In this document: positions 681 to 53,955 of the stretch, one piece after another
Numbering within the stretch: position 1 is the stretch's first letter
Layout of the letters: every line of letters starts with the position of its first letter
Assembly (NCBI GenBank): GCA_022701275.1
Contig: CP031740.1
Coordinates: 4,413,001-4,477,000, forward strand
Source: Microcoleus vaginatus PCC 9802
GTDB lineage: Bacteria; Cyanobacteriota; Cyanobacteriia; Cyanobacteriales; Microcoleaceae
Reading direction: 5' to 3'
Length of the DNA stretch: 64,000 bases
The notes under the pieces: generated by a model
The model's database searches: none
What the model was told of the DNA's origin: nothing
What the model saw: only the letters and a program-made list of their open reading frames with translations
Translations under genes and position numbers: made by a program

Positions 681-1757
681 ATGGTAGATTCCCTCAAAAA
701 ACCCACTTTTGAAGAACTGCGGCCGGGAGTGAAAGCCCCAGCCAAAGAAACTATTCTCACGCCGAGATTTTACACAACAGACTTTGACGAGATGGCCAAA
801 ATGGACATCTCCGTAAATGAAGCCGAACTAAAAGCAATTATTGAAGAGTTCCGCGTTGACTACAACCGCAACCACTTCGTGCGTGATGCCGAGTTCGAGC
901 AATCTTGGGAACACATCGACGGCGAAAAGCGCCAGTTGTTCATTGAGTTTCTGGAACGCTCTTGCACCGCTGAGTTTTCTGGCTTCTTGCTCTACAAAGA
1001 GTTAGCACGCAAGCTCAAGGACAAAAATCCACTGCTGGCCGAAGGTTTCTTGCTGATGTCCCGCGACGAAGCGCGGCACGCCGGATTCCTCAACAAAGCC
1101 CTGTCCGACTTTAATTTGTCCCTGGATTTGGGTTTCTTGACAAAGAGCCGCAGTTACACATTCTTTAAGCCGAAGTTTATTTTCTACGCGACTTACTTGT
1201 CTGAAAAGATCGGTTATTGGCGCTACATCACGATTTATCAGCACTTAAAAGCGCATCCTGAAGACCAGATTTATCCGATTTTCCGATTCTTTGAAAATTG
1301 GTGCCAAGATGAAAACCGCCACGGAGATTTCTTTGATGCGGTGATGAGAGCTCAGCCTCAGATGTTGAATGATTGGCGCGCTAAGCTTTGGTGCCGTTTC
1401 TTCTTGCTGTCAGTGTTCGCCACAATGTATCTCAATGATATCCAGCGTGCAGGTTTTTATCGATCGCTCGGACTCGATGCTCGCGAATACGACATTGAAG
1501 TCATCAAAAAGACCAACGAAACAGCAGGCCGCGTCTTCCCCGTGATGCTGGACGTGAACAACCCCGAGTTTTATGAACGCCTCGATGTTTGCCTCAAGAA
1601 CAATCAGAAGTTGACCGCCATTGTTGCTTCTAATACTCCGAAATTCTTGCAGTTCTTCCAAAAATTGCCTTTGTATCTGTCGAACGGCTGGCAATTAGTG
1701 AAGCTGTACTTCATGAAAACAATTGAATCACCTTCAGTACAGGGCGCTGTGCGTTAA
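681..1757 (+). CDS. acsF: Magnesium-protoporphyrin IX monomethyl ester (oxidative) cyclase
   Basis: The 358-residue protein is the aerobic cyclase that forms the isocyclic E ring of protochlorophyllide from Mg-protoporphyrin monomethyl ester, using O2 and a di-iron site. Visible di-iron ligands are E98 (TAEF), E130-x-x-H133 (RDEARH) and E211-x-x-H214 (QDENRH). The frame is open upstream to 513, but that extension is Arg-rich, low in homology and covers a HIP1-rich spacer. The ATG at 681 gives the usual AcsF start ([16 protein letters not shown]) and usual length. It is followed by a strong hairpin terminator and converges on the CHAT gene. Cyanobacteria often carry two acsF paralogues. Which one this is cannot be decided here. 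Confidence 0.95.
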
Positions 1758-1783
1758 GTTTTGATTTTTCATCCTCTGTGACG

Positions 1784-1816
1784 GCGGTTCTGCGACAAGC
1801 GGAGCCGCTTTTTTTT
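1784..1816 (+). terminator. Rho-independent terminator after acsF
   Basis: GCGGTTCTGC at 1784-1793 can pair with GCGGAGCCGC at 1799-1808 (two G-U pairs, 5-nt loop). A run of eight T follows directly at 1809-1816. It lies 27 nt after the acsF stop. Confidence 0.85.
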
Positions 1817-1899
1817 GGTATCCAGATTCACCGCAAAAAGTTCTCGCCCGACTTACACTCGTCCGGAATTGGAATTAATGCTGGTTTTTTTCATAAAAT

Positions 1900-14000: not shown

Positions 14001-14921
14001 ACCTATGAGTCGGCGCCAAGATCTAAAGTGGTAAAAGATTTTGAAAAACAAGAGAAATTGCGTTTAGAAAAAGAACTGCTTGGCTTTTATGTGTCAGAAC
14101 ATCCCCTAAAGTTTCTCATGCAAGTAAACCCAGACCCCGATGTTGTGACTCTCGAACAGTTAGCAGATAAAAAGGGTAAAGTATCAGTTATTGTCATGCT
14201 CAGCGCTATCAAAATGGTAGTGACAAAAAAAGGCGATGCCATGGCAATTTTGCAATTAGAAGATTTGACACATCAAATAAAAGCTGTGGTGTTCCCCAAG
14301 GCTTACGAACAAGTCAAACCTTACATTGTAGAGAATGCTATCTTACAGATTAGTGGAAAAATTGAGAAAGATGGCGAGGAAATTCAGATAATTGTAGACA
14401 CTGCAAAGCCGGTTGAAACAGTACAGGTTACAGAGGAAATCGAGAGGGCGGAATCGGAAATAAACAACTCTTGGCCAGTGGAACCAGTCAACATTGTACG
14501 ATCGACAAAACCTGTGGAAGTTTTAGAAATGGTGATTGTCAAGCTGACACCGCAGCAAGTACAAGACGGGGAAAAACTCAATTCTCTCAAAGCTATTTTA
14601 CAAGAACTTTCCAATCGTGGAGAAGGTGCTAGCGTTTCTGTGGGAGGAATTGTTGTCGGTGAATATTCCTGTCAACCCCTTCGCATTAACCCTCAATTGT
14701 GGGTGCACGATGGCGAGGGAACTGTTAGCCGTCTTAAGTCGGCTGGATTTGATGCTTGGGTTTTTCCTCTAGACAATCGCGGGGATGCTGCGGTGTTTCG
14801 AGAAATGCGATCGCAACTTAATGTACATTCTTGGGCCAGTCGCTTACTTGACACTAACACCGATCGCCTTCACAAGTATGTCAATTATCTCGCCCAACTA
14901 AACAGACGCCCGCCAAACTAA
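11082..14921 (+). CDS. dnaE: DNA polymerase III alpha subunit, uninterrupted
   Basis: The 1279-residue replicative polymerase has a PHP domain from residue 5 ([12 protein letters not shown]), a palm with catalytic acidic residues in PDIDSDF (D408, D410) and in KMDFLG, fingers, helix-hairpin-helix, and an OB-fold near 1040-1110. Many cyanobacteria encode DnaE as two genes joined by a split intein between Tyr and Cys of AEY/CFN. Here that junction ([12 protein letters not shown], Cys784, codon 13431-13433) is continuous and no intein is present. The ATG at 11082 gives the standard [13 protein letters not shown] start. A small palindrome in the coding sequence at 12599 adds about a dozen residues before [13 protein letters not shown]. 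The 3' end overlaps the converging kinase gene by 24 bp. Confidence 0.97.
12599..12620. repeat. Palindrome within dnaE
   Basis: AACAGGGAC, a 4-nt AGAA loop and GTCCCTGTT form a perfect 9-bp hairpin inside the dnaE coding sequence. It encodes EETGTEVPV, at a point where remembered cyanobacterial homologues run directly from EFKDNYEN-like residues into VRQW. Confidence 0.75.
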
Positions 14922-16985
14922 CACTTCGCCGCCATCGCCACCGGTGACTAAAGTTTGACCGTCAGGACTAAAAGCCACCGGATTGCACCCAGCTAGACTG
15001 CACAAACATTCTCCTGTTTCCAGGTTCCAGAGTTTAACCGTACCGTCTCGACTGCCGCTAGCCATAATTTCGCGATCTGGACTAATCGCCACCGAAATCA
15101 CCGCATCCGAATGCCCCCTCAAAGTATTAATCAATTCCCCTGTATCGGCATTCCACAATTTAACAGTAGCGTCGGCACTTCCACTGACAATCATCTTGCC
15201 GTCTTGACTAAATGCGATGGCATAAACCCCATCTGAATGACCGACAAAAGTCCGTACACTCTCCCCAATACCTACAAGCCACATCTTGATAGTTTTGTCA
15301 GCACTGCCGCTGGCAAGCATCATACTTTGAGGGCGAAAACTAACCGATAAAACCTTGTCAGAATGTCCCGAAAGTTTTTGAACTAATGCTCCGTTGCGCT
15401 GGTTCCACAATTTAATACTCTGGTCGCCGCTAGCACTCGCAATCGCTCCAGAGTCGCAACTAAAAGCCACCGAGTACACGGAGCCGTAGCGATGACTGTA
15501 CGGGGAACCAAAATCGCTGTAAAATTCGCGAATCATCGCCTTTTTATCCAGCTTCCACTCAATGACTTTTCTGTCAAAACTGCCGCTAACCATAATTCTC
15601 CCGTCGGGGCTGATTGCCACAGCATTAACCCTGGCGGAATGACCGAAAAAAGTATGGATGAATTCACCTGTTTGCAGGTTCCACAGCTTAATTGTTTTAT
15701 CGTCACTGGCGCTAGCGAGAATATTGCCTTGAGGATTAATAACAACAGCATTAACCGAGTCTGAATGACCGTGGAGAATGCGCTCGCACCGCCAGTTATT
15801 AGACAATAATGTCGGATTGTTAGCGGATGGCGCAACATTAATCTTGTGGGGCGGCGCGACCGAGACGGCAGTGGCTGTATTTGGCTGCGAGTTAGTTACT
15901 GGCGAATTAATAGCTATTTTTGTGGGCGAATTATAACTGATTTGAGAGCGAGGATATTGCCCAAAATTTACCAAGTCTTGCAATACTTCAGCAGCGGATT
16001 GATATCGCTCTCGTACCGAATCTTTGAGCAATTTATTCAAAATAGTTGCTAATTTTTGGCTGACTTTTATGCCTTTTTGCGCCAAGTGCGATCGCCAAAT
16101 CCATTTGCATTCCAAAGCATCGAACAAATCCTTAAGTACCGCCCCAGTTAGCAGGTGAATACAGGTAACGCCCAAACTGTAAAGGTCGCTCGCCGGATAG
16201 GCCTTGCCACTGCGAATTTGTTCGAGCGGCGCATAGCCTGCAGTTCCAGTTATCGTCCCAGTTTGCGCCTCAGAAAGGCCCGTAATGTGCTTAGCAACTC
16301 CAAAATCTACTAGCACAAACTGGCCCCCCCTGGCCTTCCCCTGTACAGCAGGAGATTCAGCCACAATTATCCCTTTCATACCACCAGAAGATTGAGGTAA
16401 ATTTGCCCCTCCTTTTCCTTTACCTGGAGTTGAGGTACTATATCCCGCAGCAGCCCACAAGGTTTGGGGACTTCTCCGCACAATATTTTCCGGCTTAATA
16501 TCTCGATGAATCACCTGCTGCTCGTGAACAAATTGCAAAACAGGCAACAAATTGATCAACAATTCCCAAATCTGTTCCTCGCTAAAAGCTCCCCGCTGCT
16601 GCAACTCCTGAAACAAATTATTTCCCTCGATTAACTCTTCCACAAGATACAGACGTTTGGCTTGTTCAAAAGAAGCCAGCAAACTGGGAATCTGCGGGTG
16701 TTCTCCGAGTTCGTGCAATCGATGAGCTTCTTGTTTGAACAGTGCAGTTGCCTTTTCTAATTCAGCCTTTTCTTGCACTTGGGGGAAAAATTGTTTGATG
16801 GCGCAGGGAGTTTTCAACCTATCTTCATCGACAGCTAAAAAAGTTCTGCCAAATGTTCCTTCGCCGATAGGTTGAAGGGCGCGGTAACGCTCTTTCAGTA
16901 GCAATTTAGAGCCGCACGCCCGACAAAAATTGGTTGAGTCAGCATTCTGCGGCTTTTGGCAATGGGGATTGAGGCAATAGCTCAT
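14898..16985 (-). CDS. Zinc-ribbon Ser/Thr protein kinase with WD40 repeats
   Basis: A start at 16985 ([10 protein letters not shown]) gives 695 residues. An upstream ATG at 17048 adds 21 residues not typical of the family. Order: four-Cys zinc ribbon (C4, C9, C21, C24), kinase domain with GEGTFG at 41-46, K64, HRDIKPEN at 160-167 and DFG at 227-229, a linker, then seven WD40 repeats from about residue 420. This architecture is the cyanobacterial '4-Cys kinase + WD40' type. The HRD-to-DFG distance is about 45 residues longer than normal because of a Gly/Ser-rich insert (about 172-218). All catalytic residues seem present, so activity is likely. The WD40 propeller presumably recruits partners. 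Confidence 0.94.
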
Positions 16986-17310
16986 CTTTTTTCCGGCCTG
17001 GAGATTCCCACCACAGCTAAACTTAGCAACATGGTAGTCTGTTTCCACTCACGCCCAGAGCACCATTCTCGACAATACCTGAGAAACCGGCTTTCTAAAC
17101 CCAAAATCTCGGCTCTCAGGTTGAGCCAGTGCCAAGAAACCAAGGTGATGACACTAGAAGTGCTTGATGTGAGTTTCCATATATTCTAATGCTTTCCTAA
17201 AATTTTGCCGGTTGGCCGCTCACAAACTGGTATGTCAACAGTTAACTGTTAACTACGGCTATTCTGCAGCATTTATGCCGAGAGTAAATACAAAACTGAG
17301 ATGAGATCGG
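16986..17310. other. Intergenic, no gene seen
   Basis: This spacer lies between the kinase start and the DUF3593 gene end. It holds a degenerate GAGAAACCGGCTTTCT element around 17080-17125 and a small AACAGTTAACTGTT palindrome near 17236. No coding signal is convincing on either strand. Confidence 0.5.
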
Positions 17311-17946: not shown

Positions 17947-18597
17947 CTACCCAGCAATTAGAAACAGAGACGGTTCCAAAGTTTTCTGTCTGCTAGGCAT
18001 CAAGCAAGCATCGTTGACAACCTCTAAATCCAAGCCGTTATTTCTATCTCCTGCCAGAATTTCCTTCAGCTTAGCATCAAAATCAAAACACGGGCCGCAA
18101 TCCCAAACTTTGAGTTCCAACCGTCCCTTAAATACCCTAATTTCCAGTTGAACAGGAGTTTCTACTGGCAGATTTTTGTGAGCGTGGCGAACTGCATTAG
18201 TGAAACCTTCGGCTAAAGCCAACTGAAAGTTCCACCACACTTCATTGGGGAGCGATATATCTTTCAACTGTTCAAACCACAACAAAACTTGGGTTAAAGC
18301 ATTGACATCTGTGTTGACTTGCAGGCTAATATGTTGAATACAAGTTTCATGCAGATCTTCTTCCTGCTGTTTTTCAGTCTGCCAATCCCAGGTGTTTAAT
18401 AAATTCATTAACCCATCTAAAACGCTAGCTTTTTTTATATTTTGGGAGCGATTGCGATTTTCTACTTCGTAAGTTTTGCTCAGCGACAAACAATTTCGAT
18501 TGTCCAGAGTCCGGGTGTAACTTAGCTCGTCTGCAATCTGCCACATGAGTTTGATCCCCCTGCCGCCTTCTGCAAGTTGATCTATGCTGTTGGACAT
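17947..18597 (-). CDS. RsbW-like anti-sigma ATPase with apparently permuted motifs
   Basis: The 216-residue protein belongs to the GHKL ATP-binding family. The part from residue about 90 carries the usual start (LQVNTDVNALTQVLLWFEQL), the N box (ALAEGFTNAVRHAH, 127-140) and the G1 box (KVWDCGPCFDF, 163-173). The segment that normally follows, the G2/G3 region, instead lies at the extreme N-terminus: AEGGRGIKLMWQIADELSYTR (9-29). After G1 the protein ends in an unrelated tail (NNGLDLEVVNDACLM...). The start at 18597 has GAGGAAA upstream, so it looks expressed. It may be a circular permutation that still folds, or a hybrid left by recombination between tandem paralogues. Proteins of this type bind STAS antagonists or sigma factors. 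Confidence 0.75.
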   Translation of the reverse strand: MSNSIDQLAEGGRGIKLMWQIADELSYTRTLDNRNCLSLSKTYEVENRNRSQNIKKASVLDGLMNLLNTWDWQTEKQQEEDLHETCIQHISLQVNTDVNALTQVLLWFEQLKDISLPNEVWWNFQLALAEGFTNAVRHAHKNLPVETPVQLEIRVFKGRLELKVWDCGPCFDFDAKLKEILAGDRNNGLDLEVVNDACLMPSRQKTLEPSLFLIAG

Positions 18598-29865: not shown

Positions 29866-30222
29866 TCAAGCATCCTTGACGTTTTTTACCGCCTCATCAA
29901 CCGAAGGCTGCAAAGACAAAAATTTCTCTAAGCGAACCAGTTTAACAGTCTGAGTTACGCGGGGATTTGAGACAATTTGCAATGTCCCCTCCAAGGTTTG
30001 GGCTTTTTTGACAAGTTGCACAAGTGCGCCCAGGCCTGAACTATCCACAAAGTCTATCTGCGACAAGTCCAAAATTACGTGTTTTGGGCTCTCGTCAATA
30101 CATTTGCTTATTACCTTCCGAAAAGTTGCCTCAGAAAAAGCGTCCAGCAGGCCAGTCAGGCGAAATAACTGATAGTTATTCTTGACTTCGCGAGTGCCTC
30201 TGAGGCTAACGGTCAGGGTCAA
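29866..30222 (-). CDS. STAS-domain anti-sigma factor antagonist
   Basis: The 118-residue single STAS domain is of the SpoIIAA/RsbV type. It has the phosphorylatable Ser region FVDSSGLGALVQLVKKA (about residues 56-72), a preceding strand HVILDLSQIDF, and the N-terminal RLTGLLDAFSEATF. In partner switching, the dephosphorylated antagonist captures an RsbW-type kinase, and an RsbU-type phosphatase reactivates it. Both component types occur elsewhere in this window. It appears monocistronic. Confidence 0.92.
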   Translation of the reverse strand: MTLTVSLRGTREVKNNYQLFRLTGLLDAFSEATFRKVISKCIDESPKHVILDLSQIDFVDSSGLGALVQLVKKAQTLEGTLQIVSNPRVTQTVKLVRLEKFLSLQPSVDEAVKNVKDA

Positions 30223-53604: not shown

Positions 53605-53955
53605 TCAGTGTTGTTTTACGCACGAGTTTTCGGCATCAAAGCTATCGACATTTTCAAATATTTCAAACACTCGATCGAGTTGGCTGAGTTCCAGAATCAT
53701 CCTAATCCCGGGGGATACCGAGCAAAGACTAAACCTGCGGCCCATTTTTTTCGCCTGCTTGAGGCCTGAAACCAATGCCATCAAACCGGCACTGTCAATA
53801 AATGTTATTGCGCCCAAATCTACGAGTACCGCTACCACTCCGGGGGCTGAAATTGCTGTCGTTAGTTGCCGTCCGAATTCTCCGCAGGTGGCTGCATTCA
53901 GGTAGTCTAGGGGTCGAATCACCGTAATTGGTTTATGGGCAAGAAGTGTCTGCAT
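53605..53955 (-). CDS. STAS-domain anti-sigma factor antagonist
   Basis: The 116-residue single STAS domain has the phosphorylation-site region ITFIDSAGLMALVSGLKQA (about 52-70), the N-terminal ITVIRPLDYLNAATCGEF and strand VVAVLVDLGA. It differs clearly from the STAS protein at 29866, so it is a separate paralogue. No kinase or phosphatase gene is adjacent. It follows the divergent or upstream region of the radical SAM gene by about 140 bp. Confidence 0.9.
   Translation of the reverse strand: MQTLLAHKPITVIRPLDYLNAATCGEFGRQLTTAISAPGVVAVLVDLGAITFIDSAGLMALVSGLKQAKKMGRRFSLCSVSPGIRMILELSQLDRVFEIFENVDSFDAENSCVKQH

Follow-up and report, generated by a model that had tools for sequence, protein, structure and literature searches.

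Does the RsbW-like gene on the minus strand of the window (the whole 64,000-nucleotide stretch analysed here, from a genome that consists of a single contig of 6.7 Mb) encode a functional ATPase whose motifs have been rearranged, or is the odd order of those motifs an accident of assembly or decay? The protein of 216 amino acids carries the motif content of the GHKL family, with the N-box Glu and Asn, the G1 Asp-x-Gly and the G2 Gly-x-Gly all present, but these do not run in the order N, G1, G2, as G2 comes first. The initial annotation had placed GGRGIKLMWQIADELSYTR at residues 11-29 and the N and G1 boxes only at 127-173, positions that are correct for the minus-strand open reading frame, although no strand had been given, and had credited the gene with a ribosome-binding site of its own, for which a GAGGAA sequence was found ahead of the ATG (Table 1). 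We put at roughly 0.8 the probability that this gene encodes a GHKL (Bergerat-fold) protein of the RsbW/SpoIIAB type that has undergone circular permutation in nature.

Table 1. Features of the permuted RsbW-like gene and its protein, in window positions.
Feature	Position	Strand	Remarks
Permuted RsbW-like gene	17947..18597	-	216 aa, stop included; coding part 17950-18597
Ribosome-binding-like GAGGAA	18603..18608	-	5 bases upstream of ATG, read from sequence
Displaced G2 block, residues 9-45	18463..18573	-	predicted helix 10-21, strands 24-29 and 35-42; dN/dS 0.00-0.42
G2 motif GGRGIKL, residues 11-17	18547..18567	-	G12 and G14 invariant, 44/44 rows
Linker, residues 46-86	18340..18462	-	mostly low confidence; 47-82 pLDDT <50
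Core, residues 87-180	18058..18339	-	beta1, alpha1, N-box helix, two strands, G1, lid helix; PF13581
N box ALAEGFTNAVRHAH, residues 127-140	18178..18219	-	E130 and N134 invariant, 44/44 rows
G1 box WDCGPCFD, residues 165-172	18082..18105	-	D166 (Asp), G168 (Gly) and F171 (Phe) invariant, 44/44 rows
C-terminal tail, residues 181-216	17950..18057	-	predicted helix to 186, then low-confidence, fast-evolving; second G2 block not detected

The best PDB relatives of the protein in both sequence and fold are the RsbW/SpoIIAB anti-sigma serine kinases (PDB 6m36, 1tid, 1til), which share its N, G1 and G2 motifs. In contrast to these, the 216-aa protein has the G2 block before the N box and its new chain ends fall in the ATP lid. 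A phmmer search of the PDB matched a single distinct sequence, B. subtilis RsbW (6m36_A), in two pieces of swapped order, residues 123-179 aligning to RsbW 38-93 and residues 2-26 to RsbW 100-124, the latter stretch being weak alone (i-Evalue 4.8). As one piece ends at 93 and the other begins at 100, the cut falls between these RsbW residues, in the segment that we take to be the ATP lid. The chain would thus start and end inside the lid, with the post-lid piece (G2 glycines, helix and last two strands) coming first and a linker of approximately 40 residues leading on to where the domain normally begins. Profile annotation masks the permutation, as the Pfam HATPase_c_2 (PF13581) match, which covers residues 97-179 and only profile positions 4-87 of 127, looks just like a truncated domain. 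NCBIfam scores for NF003144, TIGR01924 and TIGR01925 were 38.8 of 145, 38.1 of 155.05 and 13.6 of 135 bits, all far below the curated cut-off; two conventional paralogues (L044 and L045) fail these cut-offs too, so the failure is not specific to the permutation. Three conventional paralogues encoded in the same genome (G000:C1 588525-588926, 4961340-4961744, 5658645-5659079) match both the core and the G2 block, in the conventional order.

The named relatives of the window belong to Microcoleus, Tychonema and other Oscillatoriales, and an orthologue search recovered a full-length match with the permuted order and no internal stop in 27 of the 29 genomes of the genus that were examined (query 1-3 to 215-216). 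The precedence of G2 over N and G1 is therefore genuine and conserved, and its recurrence in one open frame across these genomes excludes chance and bears out the annotators' view that a simple frameshift does not explain the gene. One of the two exceptions, G003, is a genome 74% complete in which the neighbouring DUF3593 gene was likewise not found. In the other, G006, the DUF3593 and pentapeptide-repeat genes lie 293 bases apart around an empty site; as both neighbours are present with nothing RsbW-like detected between them, the gene is cleanly absent there, either lost or never present. An intact conventional gene in related genomes, which had been named as the sign of an assembly error or pseudogene, was found neither in the 23 loci of the 216-aa gene and its orthologues (family A) that were read nor in G006, and a pentapeptide-repeat neighbour was common to 21 of those 23 loci.

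From a scan of genome contigs the best 80 loci were kept, of which L061-L104 were permuted or double-block (a form described below) and the other 36 conventional. The motif pattern assigned 38 of these 44 loci as permuted (the double-block locus L092 included) and the remaining six were checked by alignment or translation. All 44 loci except L104 were aligned with the 216-aa protein, giving alignment A2 of 44 rows. In addition to the residues marked in Table 1, D23, N35, K41 and A135 were invariant in all 44 rows, every one of which matched PF13581. Across 11 orthologues of equal length, each compared with the 216-aa gene (so that all pairs share it) and with few sites per segment, dN/dS was 0.06-0.49 for the core, 0.26-1.29 for the linker (10 of 11 pairs computable, one pair having no synonymous change) and 0.26-2.88 for the tail. 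The moved block is constrained about as much as the core and is under purifying selection. That the gene is a conventional RsbW gene altered by an assembly error or a frameshift, or reduced to a pseudogene, is a negligible prospect. Only the odd order itself and the missing gene in G006 speak for this reading, which is rejected on the order seen in one open frame in the orthologues, the retained pentapeptide-repeat neighbour and the dN/dS of the moved block.

The permuted order is not confined to this gene. A second, paralogous permuted family (family B) of approximately 200 aa, 42-52% identical to the 216-aa protein, was present in 19 of the 29 genomes of the genus, and the order also occurred in four further genera, so that the search for orthologues of the same order, suggested with the initial annotation, returned both. 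Outside the genus it was found in three genomes of one genus (G067, G253, G333), four of another (G031, G054, G102, G119) and G281. Matches to block and core together (query from 11 or earlier to 177 or later) were detected in at least 36 of 388 genomes in the sample of the order (to approximately E 1e-26), among them the double-block case in G127, and in at least seven of 386 genomes in the sample of the phylum, namely six of the genus and G067. The locus left out of the alignment, from Microcoleus vaginatus HSN003, holds two tandem permuted genes (L104, 5905-6579 and 6788-7414, plus strand) before a response regulator gene, one lacking a residue after N134 in the N box and the other with His in place of N134. 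These alterations make it likely that not every permuted copy is active, and the two tandem copies are perhaps decaying or inactive. A match in G198, which began at query residue 28 and ran across two stops, proved on reading to be a conventional gene and was rejected.

The order of the elements in the predicted structure is that of a rotated RsbW domain. AlphaFold2 modelling of the 216-aa protein with alignment A2 gave a mean pLDDT of 69.7 and a pTM of 0.65, with 74 of the 216 residues below pLDDT 50 in three segments (1-8, 47-82 and 187-216). The N-terminal block, whose being left unpaired in a prediction had been named as a further refuting sign, was itself ordered, with ten-residue pLDDT means of 80, 91 and 91 over residues 11-40, compared to 84-95 over residues 91-180. 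After the block elements given in Table 1 the model has a helix in the linker, strand 88-95, helices 98-111 and 118-139, strands 148-156 and 159-166 and helix 173-186. Once rotated, this secondary structure is the conventional RsbW list, as given by the conventional part of the double-block protein (strand 93-100, helices 103-119 and 122-143, strands 152-160 and 163-170, helices 177-186 and 198-206, strands 209-214 and 220-227). The initial annotation had asked of a structure prediction whether residues 9-45 dock after G1 to complete the ATP site. With 74 residues unplaced the ceiling on pTM is approximately 142/216 = 0.66, and it would drop to approximately 0.49 if the 37-residue block also floated; the observed value lies near the former, suggesting a fixed position of the block with respect to the core. 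Together with the pLDDT values and the secondary structure, this suggests docking of the block in the model, and the predicted elements and their confidence agree with an alpha/beta sandwich that includes the block. In Foldseek searches SpoIIAB/RsbW structures came top for both models, with a best E of 0.01 and TMt of 0.38-0.57 (RsbW/SpoIIAB-type rows shown) for the permuted model and a best E of 6e-8 and TMt of 0.72-0.87 for the double-block model. Sequential alignment works for the conventional order of the latter and poorly for the permuted model, a contrast that is not fully controlled given that the double-block model is better ordered (mean pLDDT 81.5 vs 69.7).

RsbW and SpoIIAB assemble into dimers or higher oligomers, and in such an assembly the N-terminal block could complete the ATP site of a neighbouring subunit rather than its own. 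A tetramer of RsbW is reported (PMC7340262), and the linker is long and modelled with low confidence, both of which lend this domain-swapped oligomer some credit. Against it, the block is already ordered in a model of a single chain and a linker of 40 residues allows docking in cis, and we consider the swap distinctly improbable. Under the preferred reading of a circular permutant, the block would dock in cis and rebuild one ATP site, and the protein would bind ATP with its lid cut in two.

In 18 of the 23 family-A loci the DUF3593 gene comes next on the same strand, 53-572 bases further on. In the window the gene is flanked on one side by pentapeptide-repeat, hydrolase and amidase (gatA-like) genes and on the other by a kinase-WD40 gene and dnaE. 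The kinase-WD40 gene (14898-17048, minus strand), two genes from the permuted gene, encodes a serine/threonine kinase fused to WD40 repeats, and clustering recovered it from seven of the 23 loci of family A, some of them ending early. Of the 17 family-B loci, 13 have a response regulator gene next on the same strand (Response_reg and Trans_reg_C domains in the one member scanned), and nine have genes for an ECF sigma factor and a zf-HC2 protein upstream (one member of each scanned).

The genome of the window contains 13 STAS and 16 SpoIIE matches. No STAS or SpoIIE gene was found near either permuted gene in this genome, the nearest STAS gene lying approximately 11 kb from the 216-aa gene, whereas the three conventional paralogues have such neighbours within approximately 2 kb (588525 STAS, 4961340 SpoIIE and 5658645 both). 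Two STAS-domain genes inside the window (29890-30183 and 53641-53937, minus strand) are candidate partners, and a SpoIIE-domain match begins just past the window end (G000:C1:4477316). In a separate locus of G288 (L155, minus strand, 1-1701) one reading frame joins an RsbW-like domain (HATPase_c_2, residues 217-339) to a cellulose-synthase/glycosyltransferase domain (391-530).

This context leaves some room for a GHKL domain that lacks kinase activity and serves as a nucleotide-dependent binding partner, for example of the OmpR-type response regulator of family B. The response regulator gene that follows family B, the lack of STAS and SpoIIE genes nearby in the genome of the window and the altered N boxes of the tandem copies in HSN003 all agree with such a role. 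The response regulator neighbour is missing from family A, however, and the N-box Glu and Asn, the G1 Asp and Gly and the G2 glycines, invariant throughout the alignment, would hardly be needed by a mere binder, which makes this alternative unlikely. PmgA and Slr1861 of Synechocystis are RsbW-like partner-switching kinases reported to have kinase activity in vitro (PMC11863333). They provide a functional model for the 216-aa gene, the likeness being one of description with their conventional order assumed. As a permutant that retains the ATP-site residues, the 216-aa protein would act as a serine kinase or switch on a STAS protein, and its surroundings suggest an orphan RsbW-type kinase whose STAS partner is encoded elsewhere in the genome.

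Duplication followed by loss is a route to natural circular permutation, and a protein with both ends was detected in one relative. In Oscillatoria sp. SIO1A7 (L092:6001-6684, plus strand; the same as L151 of G127) a single open reading frame of 228 aa, counted from the ATG, carries a G2 block at both ends, the two blocks matching at 59% over 27 residues. This double-block form is the sole case among 14 searched genomes of its family and is known from one MAG. It is probably an intermediate of the permutation. In its AlphaFold2 model the C-terminal block was somewhat better ordered than the N-terminal (ten-residue means of 84-96 vs 71-86), as expected if the N-terminal copy is spare.

Conventional proteins were split into two types by their G2-block pattern (50 of 51 sorted, L141 unsorted), and because the types are defined by this pattern the typing of blocks is partly circular. 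HMM comparison showed the N-terminal blocks of 43 of the 44 rows in A2 (L085 was dropped by the pattern) to favour type 1 by 12.0-31.0 bits, compared to leave-one-out values for conventional blocks of +9.9 to +47.8 for type 1 and -50.9 to -1.9 for type 2. The block at the C-terminus of the SIO1A7 protein favoured type 2 by 13.4 bits and clustered with type 2 in a tree of 39 columns (support 92). The permuted cores were ambiguous, at -6.5 to +13.4 bits, with type 1 cores at +8.4 to +29.8 and type 2 cores at -44.6 to -9.3. The permuted rows need two changes on the core tree (92 columns) and three on the block tree (39 columns), trees with near-copies left out, few columns, many unresolved forks and the C-terminal block of SIO1A7 labelled as permuted. 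As the starred branches force only one change, a single origin of the permutation may be compatible with the trees.

These comparisons are consistent with a scheme in which the C-terminal end of a type-1 RsbW paralogue would have been joined to the front of a second, complete RsbW gene. The product would carry one G2 block at either end, the form still seen in SIO1A7, and subsequent loss of the second gene's own C-terminal block would yield the permuted form. The initial annotation had offered a recombinational hybrid as the alternative to a permuted fold, and this holds in part, in that the moved block scores as one type of paralogue and the C-terminal block of the double-block relative as the other. 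With the cores ambiguous, the origin of the linker unsupported and the type pattern of our own making, the fusion scheme as a whole is only partly supported. The N-terminal extension of type 2, which looked suggestive by eye as a source of the linker, scored at most 3.7 bits by HMM.

A remnant of a second G2 block was not detected in the 27 C-terminal tails of at least 30 residues that were scored (shorter tails, mostly of family B, were dropped), while the double-block protein, included as a control, scored 63.5 and 49.6 bits. With the type-2 profile 22 of the 27 tails were reported, at a mean of -1.1 bits compared to -0.9 for shuffles, and the tail of L084 was matched or beaten by just one of 100 of its own shuffles. 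With the type-1 profile most tails were not reported, and L082, L083 and L084 had 4, 5 and 8 of 100. Two conventional genes of Hormoscilla (L105 and L106), whose cores group with the permuted cores (support 83), have a 16-residue stretch resembling the displaced block roughly 70-120 bases before the core. At E 0.001 and 0.02 these were the only two stretches below E 1 among 108 translations, and they could be a decayed N-terminal block, left over in this one genus from a double-block ancestor that was resolved in the opposite direction. Tandem conventional RsbW-like genes in the same frame (L141:574-1245 and 1336-1875, plus strand, in G029) illustrate the kind of layout that could give rise to a fusion.

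A permuted GHKL protein was not found reported in the open-licence literature, to which the search was limited, and circular permutation is well known in other folds. Examples are circularly permuted DNA methyltransferases (PMC7824862, PMC10073500), the permuted GTPase CpgA/YloQ (PMC3517971), permutation in proteases and PP2C (PMC5468089) and an engineered permuted GFP (PMC12918730). The methyltransferases and CpgA/YloQ are likewise natural permutations of a catalytic fold, but of other folds, and unlike them the RsbW-like permutant has a likely intermediate that is still extant. Whether the fusion of a paralogue end and the loss of the original end gave a working kinase with a cut lid and no gating by lid closure, the double-ended form recording the route, is in our judgement an evenly balanced proposition. 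The Bergerat fold is at work in gyrase, Hsp90, MutL, histidine kinases and anti-sigma kinases, and closure of the ATP lid is generally considered central to the action of these proteins. A conserved natural protein with a severed lid would directly test the need for a continuous one, and it would offer an example of circular permutation with steps still legible in living relatives.
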